Origin: Solibacillus sp. FSL H8-0523
GTDB taxonomy: Bacteria > Bacillota > Bacilli > Bacillales_A > Planococcaceae
Assembly (NCBI RefSeq): GCF_038051985.1
Contig: NZ_CP150291.1
Location: forward strand, 2,480,001 to 2,544,000
DNA length: 64,000 nt
Direction: 5' to 3'
Shown: positions 28,623-56,197 of the stretch, in pieces
Position numbering within the stretch: position 1 is the first letter of the stretch
How the letters are laid out: each line of letters begins with the position of its first letter
Notes under the pieces: model-generated
What the model saw: only the letters and a program-made list of their open reading frames with translations
The model's database searches: none
Told to the model about the DNA's origin: nothing
Program-made: the position numbers and the translations under genes

Positions 28623-28639
28623 GTGCATATGTGTGCACT

Positions 28640-28722
28640 CATTGCTCCCTACGCCCGTATTAACGGTCAGGTTCTAAGGGTCAGGTTTTAACCTTCTCAA
28701 CACTAGGTGTCCCCCCGCAATT
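28640..28722 (-). ncRNA. TPP riboswitch 1 (gene-proximal)
   Basis: The minus strand carries the thi-box signature: GGACAC...TGAGAAGG, then ACCCTTAGAACCTGACC and CGTAGGGAGC. It differs from the distal copy at only a few positions. TPP binding should favour the terminator at 28581-28622 and shut off thiMDE. Confidence 0.93.
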
Positions 28723-28733
28723 AAAAAATTTGC

Positions 28734-28766
28734 AAAAGAAAAGCCCTCCAAATAGATGGAGAGCAT
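28734..28766 (-). terminator. Riboswitch terminator, distal
   Basis: Minus strand: GCTCTCCA pairs with TGGAGGGC, then TTTTCTTTT. It lies between the two TPP aptamers, so each aptamer has its own terminator. Confidence 0.85.
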
Positions 28767-28790
28767 CACGTACGAATATTAGCTTGTACA

Positions 28791-28873
28791 TTTTGCTCCC
28801 TACGTCCGTGTTAACGGTCAGGTTCTAAGGGTCAGGTTTTAACCTTCTCAACACTAACGTGTCCCCCTGCAAA
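28791..28873 (-). ncRNA. TPP riboswitch 2 (distal, tandem)
   Basis: Second full aptamer with the same ACCCTTAGAACCTGACC and CGTAGGGAGC boxes, in the same orientation about 150 bp upstream of the first. Tandem TPP switches with separate terminators give a steeper two-step response, as known for a few Bacillus thiamine genes. Confidence 0.93.
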
Positions 28874-28976
28874 TTCATTTAATTAATTTCAGTCTAAGGC
28901 TTAACCGCTCATAATGCAACCTTATTTATAGTTAATTTTTGGATTTCATTCTGGCGATTCAACTAAATTCATCCAA

Positions 28977-44691: not shown

Positions 44692-46986
44692 CTACTGTTT
44701 TACGTCCAATTTTTCACGCAATACTTTTGCTGCAGCAACCATGTTTTTAAGTGCTGCGATTGTTTCTGGCTCCTGACGTGTTTTTAAGCCGCAATCTGGA
44801 TTTACCCAAAATAATGGTGCAGGAATAACTGCTAAGCTATCGTTTAAAATATCCGTCATTTCAACAATCTCTGGTACACGTGGACTATGAATATCATACA
44901 CACCTAAACCTACACCATACGGATATGAATCGTCTTGTAGTGAATGAATTAATTCCCCGTGACTACGAGATGTTTCCAGTGAGATCACATCGGCATTTAA
45001 TGCGGTAATGGGTTCGATGAAATCATTGAACTCGCAATAGCACATATGCGTGTGAATTTGTGTTTCATTATCAACGTTTGAAGTTGATAATTTGAAAGCT
45101 TTGACCGCCCATTGTAAATAATCGGCCCAGTTTTCTTTACGTAGTGGTAAGCCTTCTCGTAAAGCTGGCTCATCAACCTGAATAATGCGAATTCCGGCAT
45201 CTTCAAGCGCCGCTACTTCTTTACGTAGGGCAAGTGCAATTTGATTGGCTACATCCGCGCGTGAAATATCGTCACGGACAAATGACCAGTTTAAAATTGT
45301 CACGGGACCTGTTAGCATTCCTTTTACATATTTCGATGTTTTCGATTGTGCAAATACTGCTTCTTTTACAGTCATCGGAGCTGTCCAGTCCACATCACCA
45401 AAGATGATTGGTGGTTTTACACAACGAGAGCCGTATGACACAACCCAAGCATTTTTCGTAAATGCAAAGCCTTCAAGTTTTTCGCCGAAATATTCCACCA
45501 TGTCTGTACGCTCGAATTCACCATGTACTAAAACATCTAACCCTAATTGCTCTTGAATGTGAATCCATCGTGTTGTTTCTTCATTTAATTTTTCTTCATA
45601 TGCTTCATCTGATAGATTACCTTTACGCCAAGCCGCGCGCCACGCTTTTACTTCTCTTGACTGCGGGAAGCTACCTATTGTTGTCGTTGGGAACAATGGT
45701 AAATTTAATGCTCGCTGCTGCAAGGCTAAACGTTCTTCAAATGCTAATGGACGATGGAAATCCTGATTCGTTAATTGCTTGAGCTCATTTGCTACCTTTG
45801 CATTATTGCGACTGACATCGGTTTGTAGTGCCTCGATTGCCTTCATACTCGCTGAAACAGCTGATGGATTCGGCCATACACCCGTTTCAATATACTCGGT
45901 AATCTGTACAATTTCCGGAATTTTTTCATCACTAAACGCTAGCGCATTTTTTAATACGGGCTGTAAGGTAACCTCCACCTTCGTTGTAACTGGACAATGT
46001 TGTAAACTACAAGACGATTGAATCCAAATTTCATTATTTGGAATATAATACTGAATCGCTTGTACAAATTGTGCCTGTTCCATTAAATTCGTGCGCCAAA
46101 TATCACGACCATTAATTAAGCCAATCGCTAATACTTTATCTTGTGGGAAGCCATAGTGACGAATCGCTTGAATATTTCCCTTTTTACCATGAACAAAATC
46201 TAAACCAAAACCGGCAACAGGTAGCTTTATCAGGCGTTCATAGTTGGATAACGCTTCAAAATACGTTGTCAGGATTATGTTCGCTGTCGTCGCCTCATCC
46301 AGTTGCTTATAAATTTCTTCTACTAGGCGTATGTCTTCTTCTGTTAATTCTAGTGTTAATGCAGGCTCTTCTATTTGCACAGAACTTGCACCAGCTTCTG
46401 CTAACTGCTGGATTAACGTACTATATAGAGGTACTAGCTGAATCATAAAGCTAGCTAATTGTTTTTCATCGTACCCTTTTGTTAATTTTGCAAATGTGTA
46501 CGGTCCGATTAAGGTTGCTTTTAGCTCGATACCCGTCACTTCTTTTGCTTCGTTTAACCAATCAACGTAAATGTTATGATTTAATTGCAATTTCGCGTCG
46601 TTATATTCAGGTACGATATAGTGATAGTTTGTATTGAACCATTTTGTCATTTCTGATGCAACCGTATCATCATTACCACGCGCCATTGCGTAATATGTTG
46701 TTAAAGTTTTGGCTCCTTCAATATGTTGATAACGTTCCGGTATCATGTTAAATAAAAAGGCTAAATCTAACATACGATCGTAATAGGTAAAATCCCCGAC
46801 TGTTATTTGTGTTAATCCTAGCGCTTCTTGCTTTTTAATCGATGCTTTACGTAAGTTGGCAAATTCTAGTTGTAATTCCCGTTCTGATAGCTCCTGCTTC
46901 CAAAAACGTTCCACAATCTTTTTCCATTCACGATTTTCCCCAATATACGGATAACCAACTACTGCTGCTTTTACACTCACTTTCAT
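44692..46986 (-). CDS. metE: Cobalamin-independent methionine synthase MetE
   Basis: About 764 aa, normal for MetE. It transfers methyl from 5-methyl-THF-triglutamate to homocysteine with a zinc site: His and Cys in QIHTHMCYCEF, and Cys in WVNPDCGLKTR. Other motifs: GYPYIGENREWKK, FPTTTIGSFPQSREVK, GMLTGPVTILNWSFVRDD and IIQVDEPALREGLP. ATG 46986 has GGAGG only three bases away; GTG 46980 has better spacing and is an alternative start. A cobalamin riboswitch at 47153-47320 with a downstream terminator shuts it off when B12 allows MetH to work. Confidence 0.97.
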   Translation of the reverse strand: MKVSVKAAVVGYPYIGENREWKKIVERFWKQELSERELQLEFANLRKASIKKQEALGLTQITVGDFTYYDRMLDLAFLFNMIPERYQHIEGAKTLTTYYAMARGNDDTVASEMTKWFNTNYHYIVPEYNDAKLQLNHNIYVDWLNEAKEVTGIELKATLIGPYTFAKLTKGYDEKQLASFMIQLVPLYSTLIQQLAEAGASSVQIEEPALTLELTEEDIRLVEEIYKQLDEATTANIILTTYFEALSNYERLIKLPVAGFGLDFVHGKKGNIQAIRHYGFPQDKVLAIGLINGRDIWRTNLMEQAQFVQAIQYYIPNNEIWIQSSCSLQHCPVTTKVEVTLQPVLKNALAFSDEKIPEIVQITEYIETGVWPNPSAVSASMKAIEALQTDVSRNNAKVANELKQLTNQDFHRPLAFEERLALQQRALNLPLFPTTTIGSFPQSREVKAWRAAWRKGNLSDEAYEEKLNEETTRWIHIQEQLGLDVLVHGEFERTDMVEYFGEKLEGFAFTKNAWVVSYGSRCVKPPIIFGDVDWTAPMTVKEAVFAQSKTSKYVKGMLTGPVTILNWSFVRDDISRADVANQIALALRKEVAALEDAGIRIIQVDEPALREGLPLRKENWADYLQWAVKAFKLSTSNVDNETQIHTHMCYCEFNDFIEPITALNADVISLETSRSHGELIHSLQDDSYPYGVGLGVYDIHSPRVPEIVEMTDILNDSLAVIPAPLFWVNPDCGLKTRQEPETIAALKNMVAAAKVLREKLDVKQ

Positions 46987-47018
46987 CAACCTCCAAATTG
47001 TCGTTTACATAACCAAAT

Positions 47019-47053: not shown

Positions 47054-47152
47054 AAGTTTTGATGCATCAACAAATAAGCAAACGATTAGGTTCACTGTAT
47101 CTCGCACAAAACACCACTTATCTCCTCGTAAGCTTTTGGTGTGTACTAGGAA

Positions 47153-47320
47153 ATAGGCAGGTCTCCTGACTTATCATCAACATTTGTTAACAGCCTTCCC
47201 AGTCACCCAGTGGCGTTTGTTAAAAAACTCCGAATTACAGTTGCGGGACAGTGATGGAATTGCACCATGCTTCCCTTTTCAGCTTGCTCTCACAAGCACC
47301 TATTCTTAACACGTTATGTA
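47153..47320 (-). ncRNA. Cobalamin riboswitch (metE leader)
   Basis: On the minus strand: GGGAAGC, CACTGTCCCGCAACTGTAAT, the B12 box GCCACTG with GGGAAGGC, and GATAAGTCAGGAGACCTGCC. All conserved elements of the adenosylcobalamin aptamer are present, followed by a terminator. The sequence 47321-47579 shows no gene and holds the promoters of metE and the divergent oxidoreductase. Confidence 0.95.
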
Positions 47321-48576: not shown

Positions 48577-50373
48577 TTATGCTTGTTGCACTTTATTCGT
48601 AAATCGTGGATGTGCCCATAATTCACGCCATTTCATGAATGATGCTATGACAATGATTAATCCTAGTGTTAACATAATTACCGATAACACACCGTTTAAC
48701 ACATTGTAGCCACCTGCCGCTGCATTCCAGTACACATTTTTAACCATCCAGTAACCTGCAACGTTTACCGTTACATAAAGATACACTAATGGAATAAAGC
48801 ACGTTAACACGTAAATGCGCTTATCTGCAACTTTTAATACAAATGTTACGCCACATACTAAACCAATCGACGCCATTAACTGATTCGACACACCAAACAG
48901 TGCCCAAACCGACGCAATATCACCCGAATTCAGTAAGTACCCCCACATGACACAAGCGAGCGCACTTGCCCCGATTGTACCCGGTAACCAGTCTGTTTTC
49001 TTCAGTGGCTTATAAACATTTCCTAGGAAATCTTGAATTAAATAACGTGCTGTACGCGTTCCCGCATCAATTGCCGTTAAAATAAATACCGCTTCAAACA
49101 TAATGACAAATTGATAGAAGTAGCTTGTTAAATGACTAAACCATTCCACTCCAGAGAAAATCGAAGCCATACCAACAGCAAGTGTTACCGCACCACCCGT
49201 ACGCCCCTCTAAATCCATCCCGATTGCTTCTGAAAGTGCTGGTAAATCAACAACGGACATACCAAGCGTTGCAAATTTCTCAGGTGTTGAGTTAATAGCA
49301 AAATAGTCTCCCGGATGTAAAACTGTCGCTGCGATTAATGCCATAATAGCTACGACACACTCAACTAACATCGCGCCAAAACCAACGACGCGAATATCTT
49401 CCCAACGATCTAACATTTTCGGTGTTGTCCCTGAACCTACAAACGCATGGAACCCAGATATCGCACCACATGCAATGGTGATCGATACGAACGGCCACAC
49501 GGGACCTGCAACGATTGGACCTCCACCACCTAAAAAGTCAGGAATAATAGCTGGGAATTGAATAACCGGATTAATTAGGAACACCCCGATAATTAACGCA
49601 ATGAACACACCGATTTTCATAAAGCTTGATAAATAATCACGCGGCGCAAGTAAGAACCACACTGGTAAAGCAGCCGCAAAGAATGCATAAATTGGTAAAA
49701 TAATAGATAATGTTTCTTTATCTAATGTAAGTAAATCTCCAAGCCACGTTCCTTGAATAGCTGGTCCGTAAAATACAGCCGCAACAAGGAGCGCGATTCC
49801 TAATATCGTAGAAAACTTTAAATTCCCCGTAAATTTGTTAATTAAGCCCATAAGCATCGCAATTGGAATCGTTGCTGCTACGGCAAATGTACCCCACGGA
49901 TTATCTGCTAATGCACCTAAAATAACCATGGATAAACCGGCCATTGTAATGGTAATGATGAATAGCATCGCTAACCCTGTACAAAAACCTGCCACCGGTC
50001 CTAATTCTTCACGCATTACTTCAGAAAGTGATTTACCTCCCTTTGTCATCGAAGCAAATAATACAACCGCATCGTGTACTGCTCCCCCGATTACTGCACC
50101 AACTAGTAACCAAATATAACCTGGTAAGTAACCAAATTGTGCTGCTAAGATTGGACCAACAAGTGGACCAGCCGCTGCAATCGCCGCGAAGTGATGACCA
50201 AACGCTATCCATCTATTCGTTGGCACGAAATCCTTACCATCTTCATTTTCATGCGCTGGTGTTGGCATGTCTTCATTAATTTTTAATACCTTTTTTGTAA
50301 AGAAAATTCCATAAAAACGATAGGCAATCACTAAAATACAGATTGCTGCAATCACTAAAGTTATGGCGTTCAT
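48577..50373 (-). CDS. cstA: CstA family transporter (carbon starvation protein)
   Basis: 598 aa, about 16 spans. Starts with MNAITLVIAAICILVIAYRF; conserved blocks: AAAGPLVGPILAAQFGYLPG, GAVHDAVVLFASMTKGGKS, ISGFHAFVGSGTTPKML and the C-terminal SNQLMASIGL. E. coli members CstA and BtsT import pyruvate or peptides under carbon starvation. GGGGGAAG precedes ATG 50373. It is divergent from pyruvate carboxylase, suggesting a shared role in pyruvate use. A CstA C-terminal DUF4161 extension seems shortened, as in Gram-positive members. Confidence 0.93.
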   Translation of the reverse strand: MNAITLVIAAICILVIAYRFYGIFFTKKVLKINEDMPTPAHENEDGKDFVPTNRWIAFGHHFAAIAAAGPLVGPILAAQFGYLPGYIWLLVGAVIGGAVHDAVVLFASMTKGGKSLSEVMREELGPVAGFCTGLAMLFIITITMAGLSMVILGALADNPWGTFAVAATIPIAMLMGLINKFTGNLKFSTILGIALLVAAVFYGPAIQGTWLGDLLTLDKETLSIILPIYAFFAAALPVWFLLAPRDYLSSFMKIGVFIALIIGVFLINPVIQFPAIIPDFLGGGGPIVAGPVWPFVSITIACGAISGFHAFVGSGTTPKMLDRWEDIRVVGFGAMLVECVVAIMALIAATVLHPGDYFAINSTPEKFATLGMSVVDLPALSEAIGMDLEGRTGGAVTLAVGMASIFSGVEWFSHLTSYFYQFVIMFEAVFILTAIDAGTRTARYLIQDFLGNVYKPLKKTDWLPGTIGASALACVMWGYLLNSGDIASVWALFGVSNQLMASIGLVCGVTFVLKVADKRIYVLTCFIPLVYLYVTVNVAGYWMVKNVYWNAAAGGYNVLNGVLSVIMLTLGLIIVIASFMKWRELWAHPRFTNKVQQA

Positions 50374-50714
50374 AATGCTTCCCCCAATATATGTATTTAC
50401 TAAATGACCATTTTGAAAAATAAGATAATTCTAAATTTTTATGCATCAATTAGTTTTTCTCATCCTAGCATCTTTTTTGTTCTATAACAAATGTTTTTAG
50501 AATAGTAATCTGTTATACAAACAGATGCATTTATATAGAATAAACGCTATTTTTAAAAGAATATTCCAAATTAATTTTATACAATTATAGCGCTTTAATT
50601 GTTCTTAATATTCTAGAAAAACTCAAAATTTCGTCCATTTCACTTTGGATTAACCAATTTTTATTATTGCAATCTAATTTCATCTCTGTTAGCGTAGGAG
50701 GCACAAATCAATCA
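50374..50714. other. Promoter region between cstA and pyc leader
   Basis: AT-rich, no gene recognised. TTCTATAAC and GTTATACAAAC dyads near 50482-50522 and TATAGAATAAACGC near 50534 are possible cstA control elements, none convincing. Promoters of both divergent units must lie here. Confidence 0.4.
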
Positions 50715-50872
50715 TTGAATTGGTATAACTAACGCACTTAGTTATTTAAAAGGGAAGTCTGTGAAAGTCAGACACTGTCCCGCAACTGTAATTGGGAGTT
50801 TATTCGCACAAGCCACTGTCATGGGAAGGCGCGAATAAATGTTGATCATAAGTCAGGAGACCTGCCAAGTTC
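50715..50872 (+). ncRNA. Cobalamin riboswitch upstream of pyruvate carboxylase
   Basis: AAAAGGGAAGTCTGTG, CACTGTCCCGCAACTGTAAT, the B12 box AAGCCACTG with GGGAAGGCG and TAAGTCAGGAGACCTGCC are all present and in order. A terminator follows at 50968-51000 and then pyc. The aptamer is as well conserved as the metE copy, which argues for function. Confidence 0.94.
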
Positions 50873-50967
50873 ATTGCATCGATCAACCTACGTGGATCTA
50901 GGGAAGATGTTAATATTTGTCGCACAGATCACACTTCATTATGAATGTGTTTATTTAGCAACTAATA

Positions 50968-51000
50968 TTAGCAGCTTACTCTTAAGTAAGTTGCTTTTTT
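50968..51000 (+). terminator. Riboswitch terminator of pyc
   Basis: GCAGCTTAC pairs with GTAAGTTGC (one G-U pair) and is followed by TTTTTT. AGCAACT at 50957-50963 can pair with the 3' arm instead, a possible alternative fold. Confidence 0.82.
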
Positions 51001-51063
51001 GTTCGCACAGAATGATAACGCTTACACCCGTAGCACTCTAATTAAGAAAAGGTGAATTACTTC

Positions 51064-54000
51064 ATGTTAAGCATTCAAAAAGTTTTAGTTGCCAACCGTG
51101 GCGAAATTGCAATTCGAGTATTTCGAGCACTAACAGAAATGAAAATCAAAACCGTAGCGATTTATTCCAATGAAGACAATGGATCCTACCACCGCTATAA
51201 AGCAGATGAAGCATATTTAGTTGGTGAAGGAAAAAAACCAATAGATGCATACTTAGATATTGAGGGCATTATCGATATTGCAAAAAAATGCGGAGCGGAT
51301 GCGATTCATCCAGGATACGGATTTTTATCTGAAAATCTTCATTTCGCACAACGCTGTGAAGAAGAAGGTATTATCTTTATTGGGCCAACAACCGATCATT
51401 TATACATGTTTGGCGATAAAGTAAAAGCTCGTGAACAAGCGGTTTTAGCTGGAATTCCTGTTATTCCTGGAACAGATGGACCGATTGCTTCGCTTGAGGA
51501 AGCAATTGATTTTGCCAATACATACGGTTACCCAATCATGATTAAAGCGGCACTTGGTGGTGGCGGTCGTGGGATGCGTTTAGTTGAAACAGCGAGCCAA
51601 CTTGGGGAAGGCTATACGCGCGCAAAATCAGAAGCAAAAGCAGCTTTTGGCTCTGATGAAGTGTATGTAGAAAAGGCAATCATAAAGCCAAAGCATATTG
51701 AAGTACAAATTATTGGGGATACTCATGGGAATATCGTTCACTTATATGAACGTGATTGTTCGATCCAGCGTCGCCATCAAAAGGTCGTTGAAATTGCACC
51801 GTCAATTTCCATTTCTAGTAAACTACGTCACAATATTTGTAATGCAGCTGTCAAGCTCATGCAAAACGTTAACTATGTAAACGCAGGTACCGTTGAATTT
51901 TTAGTAGCTGATGATGCATTTTATTTCATTGAAGTAAACCCTCGAATTCAAGTGGAGCATACGATTACGGAAATGATTACCGGTATTGATATTGTGCAAA
52001 CACAAATTCATATCGCCGCTGGTAAAAGCCTAAAAGATGCGGAAGTTGGTGTACCCAGCCAACAAGATATCCCCCTTTTCGGCTATGCAATTCAATCTCG
52101 CGTCACAACGGAAGATCCACAAAATCAGTTTATGCCGGATACTGGAAAACTTCAGGTGTACCGTTCATCAGGTGGTTTCGGCGTTCGTTTAGATGCCGGA
52201 AATGGCTTCCAAGGTGCTGTTGTCACACCTTACTATGATTCATTACTTGTGAAAATCTCCACTTGGGGTACAACATTTAAGCAAGCCGCTGAAAAAATGG
52301 ATCGTAACTTACGTGAGTTCCGCATTCGCGGAGTTAAAACAAATATTTCATTTTTAGAAAACGTCATGGTACACCCAAGCTTTTTAAAAGGTGATTTTAA
52401 TACAAGCTTTATTGATACAACACCTGAACTACTTGATTTTAAATTACCAAAAAACCGTGCATCAAAACTGCTGGATTACATTGGTAATGTTACAGTCAAC
52501 GGTTTCCCTGGTGTCGATACAAAAACAAAACCGATTTTAACGAAGCCTCGTATACCAGACATTTTCGTACCGACTGATTTACAAGGTACGAAGCAAATTC
52601 TTGATACACAAGGTGTCGATGGTTTAGTCAAATGGATTCAAGCACAAGACGATGTATTGTTAACAGATACAACAATGCGTGATGCGCATCAGTCGTTACT
52701 TGCGACGCGTATGCGAAGTACCGATATACTTGCGGTTGCAAAAGAAACAGCAGCTGGTATGCATTCACACTTCTCACTTGAAATGTGGGGTGGCGCAACA
52801 TTTGACGTCGCTTACCGTTTTTTAAAAGAAGATCCTTGGACACGTTTAGAGCAGCTACGAAAAGAAATTCCAAATGTATTATTCCAAATGCTACTGCGCG
52901 GGGCTAATGCGGTTGGTTATAAAAACTATTCGGATAATGTCATTCGCGAGTTTATCGCACAGTCTGCCGAATCAGGTATTGATGTATTCCGCATTTTCGA
53001 TTCATTAAACTGGATTCAGTCGATGGAAATTTCAATTGATGCCGTGCGTCAAGCGGGCAAAGTCGCCGAAGCAGCGATTTGCTATACGGGCGATATTTTA
53101 AATGATGGGCGGGCGAAATATTCTGCTCAATATTATAAGGATATGGCAAAACAACTTGAACAAGCCGGCGCACATATTTTAGCGATTAAAGATATGGCGG
53201 GTCTTTTAAAACCTGAAGCCGCCTACCGTTTAGTATCTGAATTAAAAGCAGTAACAGACCTACCGATTCATTTGCACTCACACGATACGAGTGGCAACGG
53301 TATTTACACCTATGCTCGTGCCATTGATGCAGGTGTTGATATTATCGACACGGCCCTTGGTTCAATGTCTGGCTTAACGTCACAACCATCTGCTAACTCA
53401 TTAGTTTATGCATTGGATGGTGCAAAACGACAAGTACGTGCTGATATTGAGGCATTAGAAAAACTTTCTTATTACTATGAAGATGTACGCAAATATTACC
53501 GTGAATTCGAAAGTGGTATGGTGAGCCCGCATTCAGAGGTATATGTCCATGAAATGCCAGGCGGTCAATATAGTAACCTACAGCAGCAAGCTAAAAGTGT
53601 TGGCCTTGGCGATCGCTGGGAAGAAGTAAAGGTGATGTACGGTCGCGTCAATTTACTGTTTGGCGATATCGTGAAAGTAACCCCTTCTTCAAAAGTTGTT
53701 GGGGATATGGCACTATTTATGGTACAAAACAATTTAAATGAAGAAACCATATTAACACGCGGTCAAACTCTAGACTTCCCTAGTTCAGTAATTGAATTAT
53801 TCCAAGGCTATTTAGGTCAGCCACATGGTGGATTCCCGAAGGAACTACAACGCGTCATCTTAAAAAATCGTGCGCCAATAACCGTACGACCTGGTGAATT
53901 ATTACCAGAGGTCGATTTACAAGTCATTTTGCACATGCTTGAGGAAAAATATCCACAACGCACCTTTACGAAAAAGGATTGTATCGCCTATGCGCTGTAT

Positions 54001-54498
54001 GACAAAGTATTTGAAGCATATGTTCAAACAAATGAACAATTCGGTGATATTACGGTGTTAGATACACCGACATTCATTTATGGACTAAAGCTTGGTGAAG
54101 AAATTGAGGTTGAAATTGAAAAAGGGAAAACGCTGATTATAAAACTCATTTCAATTGGCGAAGCCCAACATGATGGCACACGTATTTTGTACTTCGAGCT
54201 TAATGGTCAATCTCGTGAGTTAATCATTAAAGATTTCAGTTTAGATAGTAAGGAAGCAGCAATTTTAAAAGCAGATCCTACGAATACGAGCCAAATTGGT
54301 GCTACGATGCCTGGAACCGTATTAAAGGTAGTAATTAATAAAGGAAGTAAAGTAAAACGCGGTGACCATCTACTTATAACGGAAGCGATGAAAATGGAAA
54401 CGACTGTTCAAGCTCCTAAAGATGGCATCATTAAAGAGATCTATGTACAAGCGGGCTCAGCCCTTTCCACTGGCGATTTATTAATCGAATTCGAATAG
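51064..54498 (+). CDS. pyc: Pyruvate carboxylase
   Basis: About 1,144 aa, complete. Biotin carboxylase domain (1-450) with KVLVANRGEIAIRVFRA, glycine loop KAALGGGGRGMR and EVNPRIQVEH; carboxyltransferase domain (~530-830) with DTTMRDAHQSLLATRM and HLHSHDTSGNG; biotinyl carrier at the end with EAMKMET, biotin on Lys1110. It carboxylates pyruvate to oxaloacetate with bicarbonate and ATP. ATG 51064 has AAGGTGA at 8 bases; GTG 51052 is less likely. Position behind a cobalamin riboswitch is unusual for a biotin enzyme and implies strong expression only when B12 is scarce. Confidence 0.97.
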   Translation: MLSIQKVLVANRGEIAIRVFRALTEMKIKTVAIYSNEDNGSYHRYKADEAYLVGEGKKPIDAYLDIEGIIDIAKKCGADAIHPGYGFLSENLHFAQRCEEEGIIFIGPTTDHLYMFGDKVKAREQAVLAGIPVIPGTDGPIASLEEAIDFANTYGYPIMIKAALGGGGRGMRLVETASQLGEGYTRAKSEAKAAFGSDEVYVEKAIIKPKHIEVQIIGDTHGNIVHLYERDCSIQRRHQKVVEIAPSISISSKLRHNICNAAVKLMQNVNYVNAGTVEFLVADDAFYFIEVNPRIQVEHTITEMITGIDIVQTQIHIAAGKSLKDAEVGVPSQQDIPLFGYAIQSRVTTEDPQNQFMPDTGKLQVYRSSGGFGVRLDAGNGFQGAVVTPYYDSLLVKISTWGTTFKQAAEKMDRNLREFRIRGVKTNISFLENVMVHPSFLKGDFNTSFIDTTPELLDFKLPKNRASKLLDYIGNVTVNGFPGVDTKTKPILTKPRIPDIFVPTDLQGTKQILDTQGVDGLVKWIQAQDDVLLTDTTMRDAHQSLLATRMRSTDILAVAKETAAGMHSHFSLEMWGGATFDVAYRFLKEDPWTRLEQLRKEIPNVLFQMLLRGANAVGYKNYSDNVIREFIAQSAESGIDVFRIFDSLNWIQSMEISIDAVRQAGKVAEAAICYTGDILNDGRAKYSAQYYKDMAKQLEQAGAHILAIKDMAGLLKPEAAYRLVSELKAVTDLPIHLHSHDTSGNGIYTYARAIDAGVDIIDTALGSMSGLTSQPSANSLVYALDGAKRQVRADIEALEKLSYYYEDVRKYYREFESGMVSPHSEVYVHEMPGGQYSNLQQQAKSVGLGDRWEEVKVMYGRVNLLFGDIVKVTPSSKVVGDMALFMVQNNLNEETILTRGQTLDFPSSVIELFQGYLGQPHGGFPKELQRVILKNRAPITVRPGELLPEVDLQVILHMLEEKYPQRTFTKKDCIAYALYDKVFEAYVQTNEQFGDITVLDTPTFIYGLKLGEEIEVEIEKGKTLIIKLISIGEAQHDGTRILYFELNGQSRELIIKDFSLDSKEAAILKADPTNTSQIGATMPGTVLKVVINKGSKVKRGDHLLITEAMKMETTVQAPKDGIIKEIYVQAGSALSTGDLLIEFE

Positions 54499-54511: not shown

Positions 54512-54546
54512 AAAGGACCACACACGATCTTGTGGTCCTTTCCCTC
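54512..54546 (+). terminator. Terminator after pyc
   Basis: AAAGGACCACA (54512-54522) pairs perfectly with TGTGGTCCTTT (54531-54541), then CCCTCTTTT. Confidence 0.9.
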
Positions 54547-54667
54547 TTTTATAGATAAAATTTACAACTATTTAATACGAAACCTTCTTAAAATTCGAAC
54601 ATTTATTGACGAAATACTAATTATTGCTTATACTATAATTAGTTTTACTAATATAACTTCATATGAA

Positions 54668-54835
54668 TCGTGTATGTTGTGGTGCTTATGAGAATAAGCT
54701 TAAAAGGGAAGTACGGTGTGAATCCGTCGCTGTCCCGCAACTGTATATTCGGAGTTTTTTACAAATACCACTGAGTAATCGGGAAGGTGTAAAAAATGTT
54801 GATGATAAGCCAGGAGACCTGCCAAAACTAGTACA
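54668..54835 (+). ncRNA. Cobalamin riboswitch without adjacent target gene
   Basis: AAAAGGGAAGTACGGTGTGA, TCGCTGTCCCGCAACTGTAT, ACCACTG with CGGGAAGGTG, and TAAGCCAGGAGACCTGCC give a full aptamer, closest to the metE leader in its TTCGGAGTTTTTTA segment. A terminator follows at 54931-54964. The first possible gene downstream is a 59-codon frame 440 bp further on. Confidence 0.92.
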
Positions 54836-54930
54836 CACCAATGCTCACGTGGAAATGAGTGGTGAAATTATCGTACGTCAAACGAATTTGAATTCCTGAT
54901 CTTCAGGCTTATTTAAGTTGACTTTTACCG

Positions 54931-54964
54931 ACCATCTTCCATCTTTACGCGAAGGTGGTTTTTT
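54931..54964 (+). terminator. Terminator of orphan cobalamin riboswitch
   Basis: ACCATCTTC (54931-54939) pairs with GAAGGTGGT (54951-54959) with one wobble, followed by TTTTT. Confidence 0.8.
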
Positions 54965-55216: not shown

Positions 55217-55230
55217 TGTAAGCGGTTTCA
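55217..55230. promoter_or_regulatory. CcpA cre site
   Basis: TGTAAGCGGTTTCA matches the cre consensus TGWAANCGNTNWCA at every fixed position. It lies 42 bp before the start of the 59-codon ORF, suggesting carbon catabolite control of it. Confidence 0.6.
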
Positions 55231-55271: not shown

Positions 55272-55451
55272 ATGATAGAAACCTACATCGACTTATTAAA
55301 AGAGCAAATTATGCAAAATACACTTGGGAATACAGCAAGTACATTAACAGAAATCACCGAACAATTAATGCTTCAACACACAGATCACCAGCAAGAAATT
55401 TCAAAAGCTTATGATTTTGTGAGCCGCGAACTTTCAGGTGAATCGATTTAA
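55272..55451 (+). CDS. Small unknown protein, 59 aa
   Basis: ATG 55272 has AAGGAGG about 8 bases upstream. The protein begins MIETYIDLLKEQIMQNTLG and ends AYDFVSRELSGESI; it is mainly helical and acidic, without membrane span, cysteines or signal peptide. The start site and codon use look real. It is preceded by a perfect cre match and, 440 bp upstream, by a cobalamin riboswitch. A hairpin terminator follows at 55485. No family recognised. Confidence 0.6.
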   Translation: MIETYIDLLKEQIMQNTLGNTASTLTEITEQLMLQHTDHQQEISKAYDFVSRELSGESI

Positions 55452-55528: not shown

Positions 55529-56197
55529 CTATAAATTCAACCTATACTGGGTTAATGCAGATTTTGCATCCAACTGGTCGACTAAGGAATGATTTGTCGC
55601 AGCCTTCGTGCTATCTGTTCCTGATAGTTGGCCTAACAAAGCATCCGTGCTATTTGCTGATTTGGACGCAATATAGTTTTCGATCAAGCTAATGTTTTGC
55701 TGCATTTGCTCGATGCGGAATTGTGCCGAAGCATTTGGCGTTTCACCCATTCGCTCTATAAACCCGTTAAACGAAGATTGTAGCTTAGCCTTTGCCGCAT
55801 TCATGTTATTTAAAAGTTGCGATTGGAATGTGCTCGTTAACCCGTCCGCATAAGCAGCTGGTGCCGAGATATTCGGCGTGTTATAAAGGCTTGTTAAGTT
55901 CGCCGCCGATGTGCCAGTTGATTGTAAGCTTGATAACAATTGTGATGCAACATCTGAAGTCGAACCTGAAGAAGTTAAACCGTTTACTAACGAGTTTGCA
56001 CCACCATTTGAATACATATCCAGTAGCGAAGATACACTTGCAGCGGGCGTGGCGCTATTTGTTCCTGTTCCTAAAGCATTCATTAAATAGTTTTCAAAGC
56101 TTGTTCCTGAGATATTCGGTGTTGTAGCAGCCGCCGTGCCATATGTAGAGCCGAGTAAACTATTAATTGAATTCAGTGATGATAAGTCCATTGACAT
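55529..56197 (-). CDS. Unknown Ser/Ala/Asn-rich protein
   Basis: 222 aa, strikingly rich in Ser, Ala, Asn, Thr and Leu, poor in charged residues until the C-terminal third. Short repeats such as SLLGSTYGTAAATTPN, NALGTGTNSATPAASVSSLL and SLQSTGTSAANLTSLY alternate hydrophobic and small residues; the C-terminus (FIERMGETPNASAQFRIEQM) is helical. No signal peptide or span. The composition recalls flagellar hook or capping proteins and other secreted flagellar-type substrates, but no family is recognised. Excellent GGGAGGTG before ATG 56197, so it is a real gene. Confidence 0.7.
   Translation of the reverse strand: MSMDLSSLNSINSLLGSTYGTAAATTPNISGTSFENYLMNALGTGTNSATPAASVSSLLDMYSNGGANSLVNGLTSSGSTSDVASQLLSSLQSTGTSAANLTSLYNTPNISAPAAYADGLTSTFQSQLLNNMNAAKAKLQSSFNGFIERMGETPNASAQFRIEQMQQNISLIENYIASKSANSTDALLGQLSGTDSTKAATNHSLVDQLDAKSALTQYRLNL

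Follow-up and report, generated by a model that had tools for sequence, protein, structure and literature searches.

A pyruvate carboxylase gene behind a cobalamin riboswitch in Solibacillus: a possible built-in way around a B12-dependent pathway

The analyses reported here place a second pyruvate carboxylase gene of Solibacillus sp. FSL H8-0523, pyc2, behind a cobalamin riboswitch which, judged by its sequence, is real and of the standard kind on an unusual target. We consider it likely that pyc2, lying under a terminating switch and made when cobalamin is scarce, replaces the supply of C4 acids that is lost with methylmalonyl-CoA mutase, and the arrangement suggests that a B12-dependent pathway has a built-in bypass. 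Here the cobalamin switch stands over an anaplerotic enzyme; in two other genera a whole B12-free route from propionyl-CoA to oxaloacetate is placed under such a switch. The features discussed (Table 1) lie in a stretch of 64,000 nucleotides of contig NZ_CP150291.1, referred to throughout as the window; genomes carry G numbers (that of the window is G000) and loci L numbers.

The pyc2 leader and the encoded enzyme

The aptamer before pyc2 covers the full RF00174 model (positions 1–189) with a cmscan score to be set against a gathering score of 31.5, and it was recovered again in a search of the whole genome, where its score was second-best among seven switches. It contains the conserved core motifs AGTCAGGAGACCTGCC, which we take to be the B12 box, GGGAAGG, GCCACTG and CTGTCCCGCAACTGTA, and also AAGCCACTG at 50810–50818. 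A preliminary description had claimed a complete cobalamin aptamer bearing quoted motifs, followed on one strand by a terminator and pyc; both claims hold, the motifs being present, all three elements lying on the + strand and no ORF of at least 100 aa intervening, while the interval it gave, 50715–51100, begins 11 bases within the aptamer. Directly 3′ of the aptamer stands a short hairpin with the loop CGTGGATC; its motif CGNGGA is shared by the leaders of metE, the second switch, the nrd-like cluster and the switch-led operons of G081 and G063, five in all, and may be the partner in a putative L5–L13 kissing loop.

Table 1. Features of the window around pyc2
Feature	Positions	Strand	Basis or remark
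metE, B12-independent methionine synthase	44692..46989	-	TIGR01371, 1023.2 bits
Cobalamin riboswitch of metE	47139..47318	-	RF00174, 118.1 bits
cstA-like gene, divergent neighbour of the pyc2 unit	48577..50373	-	ORF, homologues
Weak promoter-like site TTCACT-17-TATTAT	50639..50667	+	36 bases 5′ of aptamer; candidate only
Cobalamin riboswitch aptamer before pyc2	50704..50883	+	RF00174, 119.6 bits, E 2e-29
Aptamer core GCAACU, candidate antiterminator partner of 50989–50994	50782..50787	+	Pairing probability ~0.45
Short hairpin CCTA-CGTGGATC-TAGG, candidate P13/L13	50887..50902	+	Leader sequences
Intrinsic terminator between aptamer and pyc2	50970..50995	+	Terminator scan; fold -13.9 kcal/mol, z -4.57
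cre-like site TGATAACGCTTACA	51013..51026	+	Between terminator and pyc2 start
pyc2, pyruvate carboxylase, 1144 aa, intact	51064..54498	+	ATG 51064, stop 54498
Terminator-like hairpin after pyc2, tail CCCTCTTTTA	54512..54541	+	Terminator scan
Second cobalamin riboswitch, after pyc2	54663..54840	+	RF00174, 115.9 bits; intact in G001, G002
Terminator after second switch	54939..54958	+	Fold -12.8 kcal/mol
Second cre-like site TGTAAGCGGTTTCA	55217..55230	+	Older consensus
59-aa protein, small family behind cobalamin switches	55272..55451	+	Profile search

None of 200 shuffles of the pyc2-leader terminator was equally stable. Folded without constraint the leader is bistable, the terminator forming with a probability of 0.53 and its 3′ arm (50989–50994) pairing with the GCAACU of the aptamer core with 0.45, so that ligand binding would be expected to free the terminator. 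As a general rule such pairing of aptamer core with terminator 3′ arm was rejected, since five further leaders either lack it or give it a probability no higher than 0.05, and it is kept as a candidate for the pyc2 leader only.

The order aptamer, terminator-like hairpin with a T run, cre-like site and start is common to pyc2 and to the prp operons of G081 and G063 described below. Their hairpins fold with -13.9 (window), -14.3 (G081) and -10.9 kcal/mol (G063), at z of -4.57, -2.99 and -1.86; those of G081 and G063, with loops longer than the 3–8 allowed or bulged, were missed by the terminator scan and rest on the folds. The cre-like sites, TGATAACGCTTACA in the window, TGAAAACGCTTACT in G081 and TGTAAACGCTTACT in G063, occupy the corresponding position of the leader, and each is the sole match in the stretch searched. 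The window site was first found by an older consensus, which matches twice in the 64-kb window against 0.34 expected (5 of 100 shuffles had at least two), the other match being the site before the small protein. The joint pattern for the three sites was composed after they had been seen; its expected matches are 0.31 in 64 kb, 0.14 in the 19.9 kb of G081 and 0.07 in the 19.0 kb of G063, and it occurred anywhere in the shuffled locus in 23 of 200 (G081) and 12 of 200 cases (G063). A cre downstream of the promoter would act as a roadblock, and the position of the site suggests that CcpA may act after the pyc2 terminator. Ligand binding, the OFF direction and this action of CcpA are all inferred.

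The promoter-like site 5′ of the aptamer is held to be a candidate only, since the region gave four such sites and shuffled sequence 3.4. A promoter between the terminator and the ATG was named in the preliminary description as something that would speak against control by the switch; a simple scan of the 68 bases at 50996–51063, inside which the cre-like site lies, found no promoter-like site on the + strand. Although an unusual promoter could escape simple scans, this result and the recurrence of switch-led pyc in other genera make it hardly credible that switch and pyc2 are mere neighbours and that pyc2 is read from a promoter of its own after the terminator.

By family, the product of pyc2 is a full-length pyruvate carboxylase, and carboxylation of pyruvate is predicted for it: the protein matches TIGR01235 over residues 6–1144 (1830.5 bits against a cut-off of 1114.45), aligns with the solved pyruvate carboxylase 4qsk over residues 3–1143 and holds all eight motif strings searched, EAMKME at 1107 among them, which represent the biotin site and catalytic motifs. 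Base composition gave no foreign signature for the gene (GC 0.405, against 0.430 for the housekeeping copy pyc1 and 0.383 for the window). The divergent neighbour is a presumptive cstA-like gene. Such a gene lies near the switch-linked pyc in G000 (divergent) and G081 (in line), and none was seen among the ORFs of the G063 locus (L197). CstA is reported to be a pyruvate importer in E. coli (PMC7730263, PMC5847655), and a cstA adjoining switch-linked pyc would fit pyruvate import, or may be there by chance.

Switch-led pyc genes beyond the window

A pyc was found in 259 of 260 genomes of the family and two matches in 18, in a search that scored two candidates per genome and would miss third copies; the double matches of G042 and G247 are probably one gene in two pieces, which leaves 16 two-copy genomes. 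The preliminary description had proposed a family-wide look for RF00174 before pyc, and the pairing indeed recurs, the switch lying directly upstream of pyc in G000 and 3.9–4.0 kb upstream on the same strand in G063 and G081. In 12 of the 13 remaining two-copy genomes neither copy had an RF00174 match in the 5 kb before it on the contigs examined, some of which end sooner; the thirteenth is G183, whose second copy is in fragments. A motif scan of the best 80 contigs by identity (up to 6 kb, less at contig ends) and of 15 congeners found no switch upstream of pyc, this best-80 set being one that would largely miss pyc of the prp-linked type (68–69% identical to the window's), and cmscan found none at 6 of the closest pyc loci (L063, L154–L158) or at 15 further family loci. 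Some regular-expression matches of the motif scan (for example L089 9395, L170 5982, L196 1549, L199 11297 and L202 1178) were rejected as false, those in L170 and L196 having no cmscan support.

At L196 of G081 and L197 of G063 a cobalamin switch (115.8 and 114.0 bits, respectively, by cmscan) is followed in turn by prpC, prpD, prpB and pyc. The NCBIfam matches at L196 are TIGR02330 for prpD (882.6 bits), TIGR02317 for prpB (428 bits) and TIGR01235 for pyc (1851.2 bits); the prpC product matches citrate synthase NF009004 with 684.1 bits and TIGR01800 (2-methylcitrate/citrate synthase II) with 409.6, just below the cut-off of 421.3, and we read it as methylcitrate synthase because of the operon context as well as the model. 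At L197 Pfam agrees at family level, and the proteins are 80–89% identical to those of L196. From propionyl-CoA and oxaloacetate the methylcitrate enzymes make succinate and pyruvate, and pyruvate carboxylase converts this pyruvate into oxaloacetate; the cycle together with this enzyme nets one C4 per propionyl-CoA, equal to the yield of methylmalonyl-CoA mutase. The cycle itself is described in PMC4428469. Since a switch-led prpCDB–pyc operon stands in two genera, switch-linked pyc appears to be tied to the B12-free use of propionyl-CoA.

In a tree of 57 pyc proteins, made by a quick method with SH-aLRT support, the window pyc2 falls into a clade of six with Caryophanon-type pyc (support 100; 84 for placement within). 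Two of these relatives carry pyc at the housekeeping place, others behind aldolase-type genes which, named from ORF beginnings, resemble an aromatic pathway. The prp-linked pyc of G063 and G081 group with the second copy of G056 (support 100) in a Bacillaceae-type clade (split support 100), and the two kinds, lying in separate clades, are therefore not orthologues. Two separate recruitments of pyc to a cobalamin switch are thus probable, or possibly a single old switch-led unit exchanged its pyc for another; pyc2 itself, as we infer, was probably gained from outside the genus.

Of the genus, 16 genomes were compared, and at E ≤ 1e-200 two pyc are found in G000 alone, each of the 15 congeners having one that is 77–78% identical to pyc2, and cmscan found no cobalamin switch at any of the 16 housekeeping loci (flanks of 1.5 kb). 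Two congeners hold remnants. In G002 the locus still has cstA, after which come a first switch in decay (85.2 bits), remnants of pyc corresponding to residues 144–166, 915–984 and 1110–1144 of 1144, the second switch, intact at 114.6 bits, and the gene of the small protein. That of G001 has no first switch and retains fragments (residues 144–166, 915–1038 and 1114–1144) and the pyc cre-like site, together with the small protein and a second switch that is intact at 119.2 bits. No pyc2 fragments were seen in the stretches examined of 9 of the remaining 13 congeners. The pyc switches of G000 and G002 share 87% identity, that of G002 being without CTGTCCCGCAACTGTA, GCCACTG, GGGAAGG and an intact B12 box; their second switches share 94%, and the one in G002 keeps all those motifs. 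Since the pyc switch of G002 has decayed beside a fragmented pyc while the second switch is intact, aptamer and gene seem, in this one genome pair, to have been lost together, as would be expected if the aptamer serves the gene. The second switch of G000 reads ACCACTG at the place of the motif GCCACTG.

These remnants bear on the view that pyc2 is a passing acquisition, its switch working, that has no lasting role beside pyc1 and is being lost in the genus. The pyc fragments in G001 and G002, and the fact that G000 alone of the 16 genomes keeps the gene whole, speak for it; the gene is, however, intact over 1144 aa with its eight motifs, its switch is the second-best scoring of the genome's seven and a second, distant pyc is under like control in two genera, and we regard the view as unlikely. 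CbiD is absent in G000, which kept pyc2, and present in G001 and G002, which lost it. B12 auxotrophy as a rule for switch-led pyc was rejected, G063 and G081 having both the operon and ORFs that are CbiD-like by sequence likeness.

Proposed role of pyc2

The genome of the window (one contig of 4,144,207 bases) has seven cobalamin switches, which precede nrd-like, btuFCD-like, salvage and surface/transport clusters, metE and pyc2, the seventh lying after pyc2; the cluster names are presumptive, taken from ORF beginnings, with one protein each of the salvage and the surface/transport clusters checked with Pfam. The preliminary description had pointed to mutAB and a further pyc as genes worth seeking, and both are present. 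Methylmalonyl-CoA mutase (NF006944, 1280.6 bits) is encoded with MeaB and carboxyl transferase genes, and hence an AdoCbl-dependent supply of C4 from propionyl-CoA is encoded; there are also an IcmF-like mutase and MetH. The mutase, MeaB and carboxyl transferase genes adjoin what, judged by the beginnings of its ORFs, looks to be a cluster for branched-chain keto acid dehydrogenase. CbiD was not found in this genome and is present in 10 of the 16 of the genus, and the organism's cobalamin probably has to come by uptake. The housekeeping pyc1 (G000:C1:770465–773893) is full-length and 77% identical to pyc2, it lies between presumptive ftsW-like and ctaA-like ORFs, and cmscan found no cobalamin switch within 1.5 kb of it. 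As pyc1 is unswitched, pyc2 is an extra copy and not the sole C4 supply.

We propose that with cobalamin bound the leader would terminate at 50995, and that without it RNA polymerase would continue into pyc2; in the presence of a preferred sugar, CcpA at the cre-like site downstream of the terminator would add repression. Cells short of cobalamin and growing on amino acids or organic acids would then make the enzyme. Under such conditions methylmalonyl-CoA mutase, an AdoCbl enzyme, could not convert propionyl-CoA into succinyl-CoA, and pyc2 would supply C4 acids from pyruvate. The complete version would be that of G063 and G081, in which the methylcitrate cycle would take propionyl-CoA to pyruvate and pyruvate carboxylase would carry this on to oxaloacetate, which is also the acceptor for PrpC.

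The bypass genes stand together under the switch in G063 and G081, and in the window's genome pyc2 stands alone. A local methylcitrate cycle as partner of pyc2 failed at PrpD, the one of its three proteins that the genome-wide search covered: no equivalog-family PrpD was found. The two PF03972 matches, which score 91.8 and 57.4 bits where the PrpD of G063 scores 306.8, lie in another catabolic cluster and have no TIGR02330 match. The preliminary description had cast pyc2 as a B12-independent substitute for C4 supply. The presence of the mutase, the absence of CbiD and the switch-led prpCDB–pyc of two genera agree with this, while the unswitched pyc1, the want of an equivalog PrpD and the single unswitched pyc of 15 of 15 congeners do not; with an ordinary pyc1 present and no true PrpD found, the metabolic role of pyc2 here is to be taken as supplementary and unproven. 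That no such PrpD was found also weighs against the idea that pyc2 serves detoxification by feeding methylcitrate synthase with oxaloacetate, any net gain of C4 coming second, an idea that would suit the joining of prpC and pyc in one operon in G063 and G081 and that we think very unlikely.

It might also be argued that pyc2 serves synthesis of methionine and the aspartate family when MetE replaces MetH, and not propionyl-CoA use, for the metE switch is 3.4 kb from that of pyc2 and oxaloacetate feeds aspartate and homocysteine. Yet the partners of pyc in G063 and G081 are three methylcitrate genes, and an ORF of G081 that is MetE-like by sequence likeness has its own switch elsewhere (L207); this reading is in our judgement quite unlikely, and replacement of the C4 supply from propionyl-CoA is the role we prefer.

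The second switch leads to a 59-aa ORF with a strong ribosome site; its cre-like site is not kept in G001 or G002 and does not match the joint pattern. Related small proteins occur in G000, G001, G002, G003, G004, G009, G013, G063, G081 and G056, those of G063 and G056 being outside the eight-member profile, and a cobalamin-type switch lies just 5′ of the gene in 10 of 10 genomes, a count biased in that the loci were mostly chosen for switches or pyc. In G056 the motif scan gave no switch and cmscan gave RF01482 (53.3 bits). The gene comes after the prp-operon pyc in G081 and after a MetE-like ORF, with a switch of its own, in G003 and G004. Family searches gave weak, unrelated matches only, leaving the protein without a family; its model is a confident three-helix one (pLDDT 88.6), for which a structure search found no fold match (best E 7.6). 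Either a B12 enzyme or the bypass may be the target of this protein. Within one family, two distant pyc lie behind switch, terminator and cre-like site, one alone and one after prpCDB, with a switch-led protein of ~60 residues after pyc in the window and G081; we put forward tentatively, as less likely than not, that they were placed there separately and form a carbon-entry module gated by B12 and sugar.

Comparison with known systems

Cobalamin riboswitches are known for genes of B12 transport and synthesis and for B12-free isozymes. We found no earlier report of such a switch with pyc or methylcitrate genes in the open-access literature searched, and priority is unproven. If the proposed role is true, vitamin supply would directly set the entry of carbon into the TCA cycle through an RNA sensor, and a two-signal logic of vitamin and sugar within one leader would be readily testable.

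The housekeeping pyc of the family is of the same enzyme family, 77% identical in the window's genome, and unlike pyc2 it has no switch (16 of 16 genus loci). In the literature, MutAB is termed anaplerotic (PMC12713380), and the methylcitrate pathway is treated among cobamide-independent counterparts (PMC11774034). Another parallel is in M. tuberculosis, where prpDC and metE go down with B12, so that prpR–prpDC is alike in having B12-repressed methylcitrate genes; it differs in that PrpR is a named transcription factor and that the accessible part of the report mentions no riboswitch on prpDC and no pyc (PMC10924821). RF00174 before metE and ribonucleotide reductase genes, as found at metE and the nrd-like cluster of the window's genome, is alike in that the same aptamer family controls a B12-free stand-in, whereas the pyc target is an anaplerotic enzyme and no isozyme of a B12 enzyme, standing alone in the window and behind the methylcitrate genes in G063 and G081.

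Small proteins behind cobalamin-type switches

The small protein encoded behind the second cobalamin switch of the window belongs to a family of about 60 residues, with members at 10 loci in 10 genomes, and in all 10 genomes where the family was seen a cobalamin-type switch lies directly upstream of the gene. No known domain was found in this family.

Members of the small-protein family (L, loci of related genomes)
Locus	Coordinates	Strand	Remark
Window	55272-55451	+	
L130	17494-17682		
L131	15946-16134	-	
L142	4021-4200		two tandem switches upstream
L136	4377-4556	-	two tandem switches upstream
L140	5997-6350		doubled
L141	6061-6417		doubled
L196	12992-13171		
L217	414-602	-	
L198	5287-5571	-	

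Other features of the window

The gene at 55529-56197(-) encodes a 222-residue protein with a high content of S, N and T (N-terminal start MSMDLSSLNSINSLLGSTYG); similar ORFs lie close to cobalamin gene clusters in two other genomes, G001 (L131, 676-1365) and G014 (L134, 2214-2885). Additionally, cmscan placed a tandem pair of TPP riboswitches (67.2 and 66.5 bits) at 28629-28878(-), upstream of ORFs that resemble a thiM/thiD/thiE cluster.

pyc in related genomes

The pyc of L052, a record named Arthrobacter beigongshangensis, falls among Sporosarcina-type sequences in the pyc tree, which points to possible contamination or a wrong name for the record. Caryophanon-type pyc genes (the clade grouping with the window pyc2) are preceded by aldolase-type genes, named from ORF beginnings, in L063 (2146-9429) and also in L155, L157 and L158. 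These genes look like an aromatic meta-cleavage pathway and, because such a pathway yields pyruvate, the loci would appear, under those names, to represent a further case of pyc sited with a pyruvate-making pathway.
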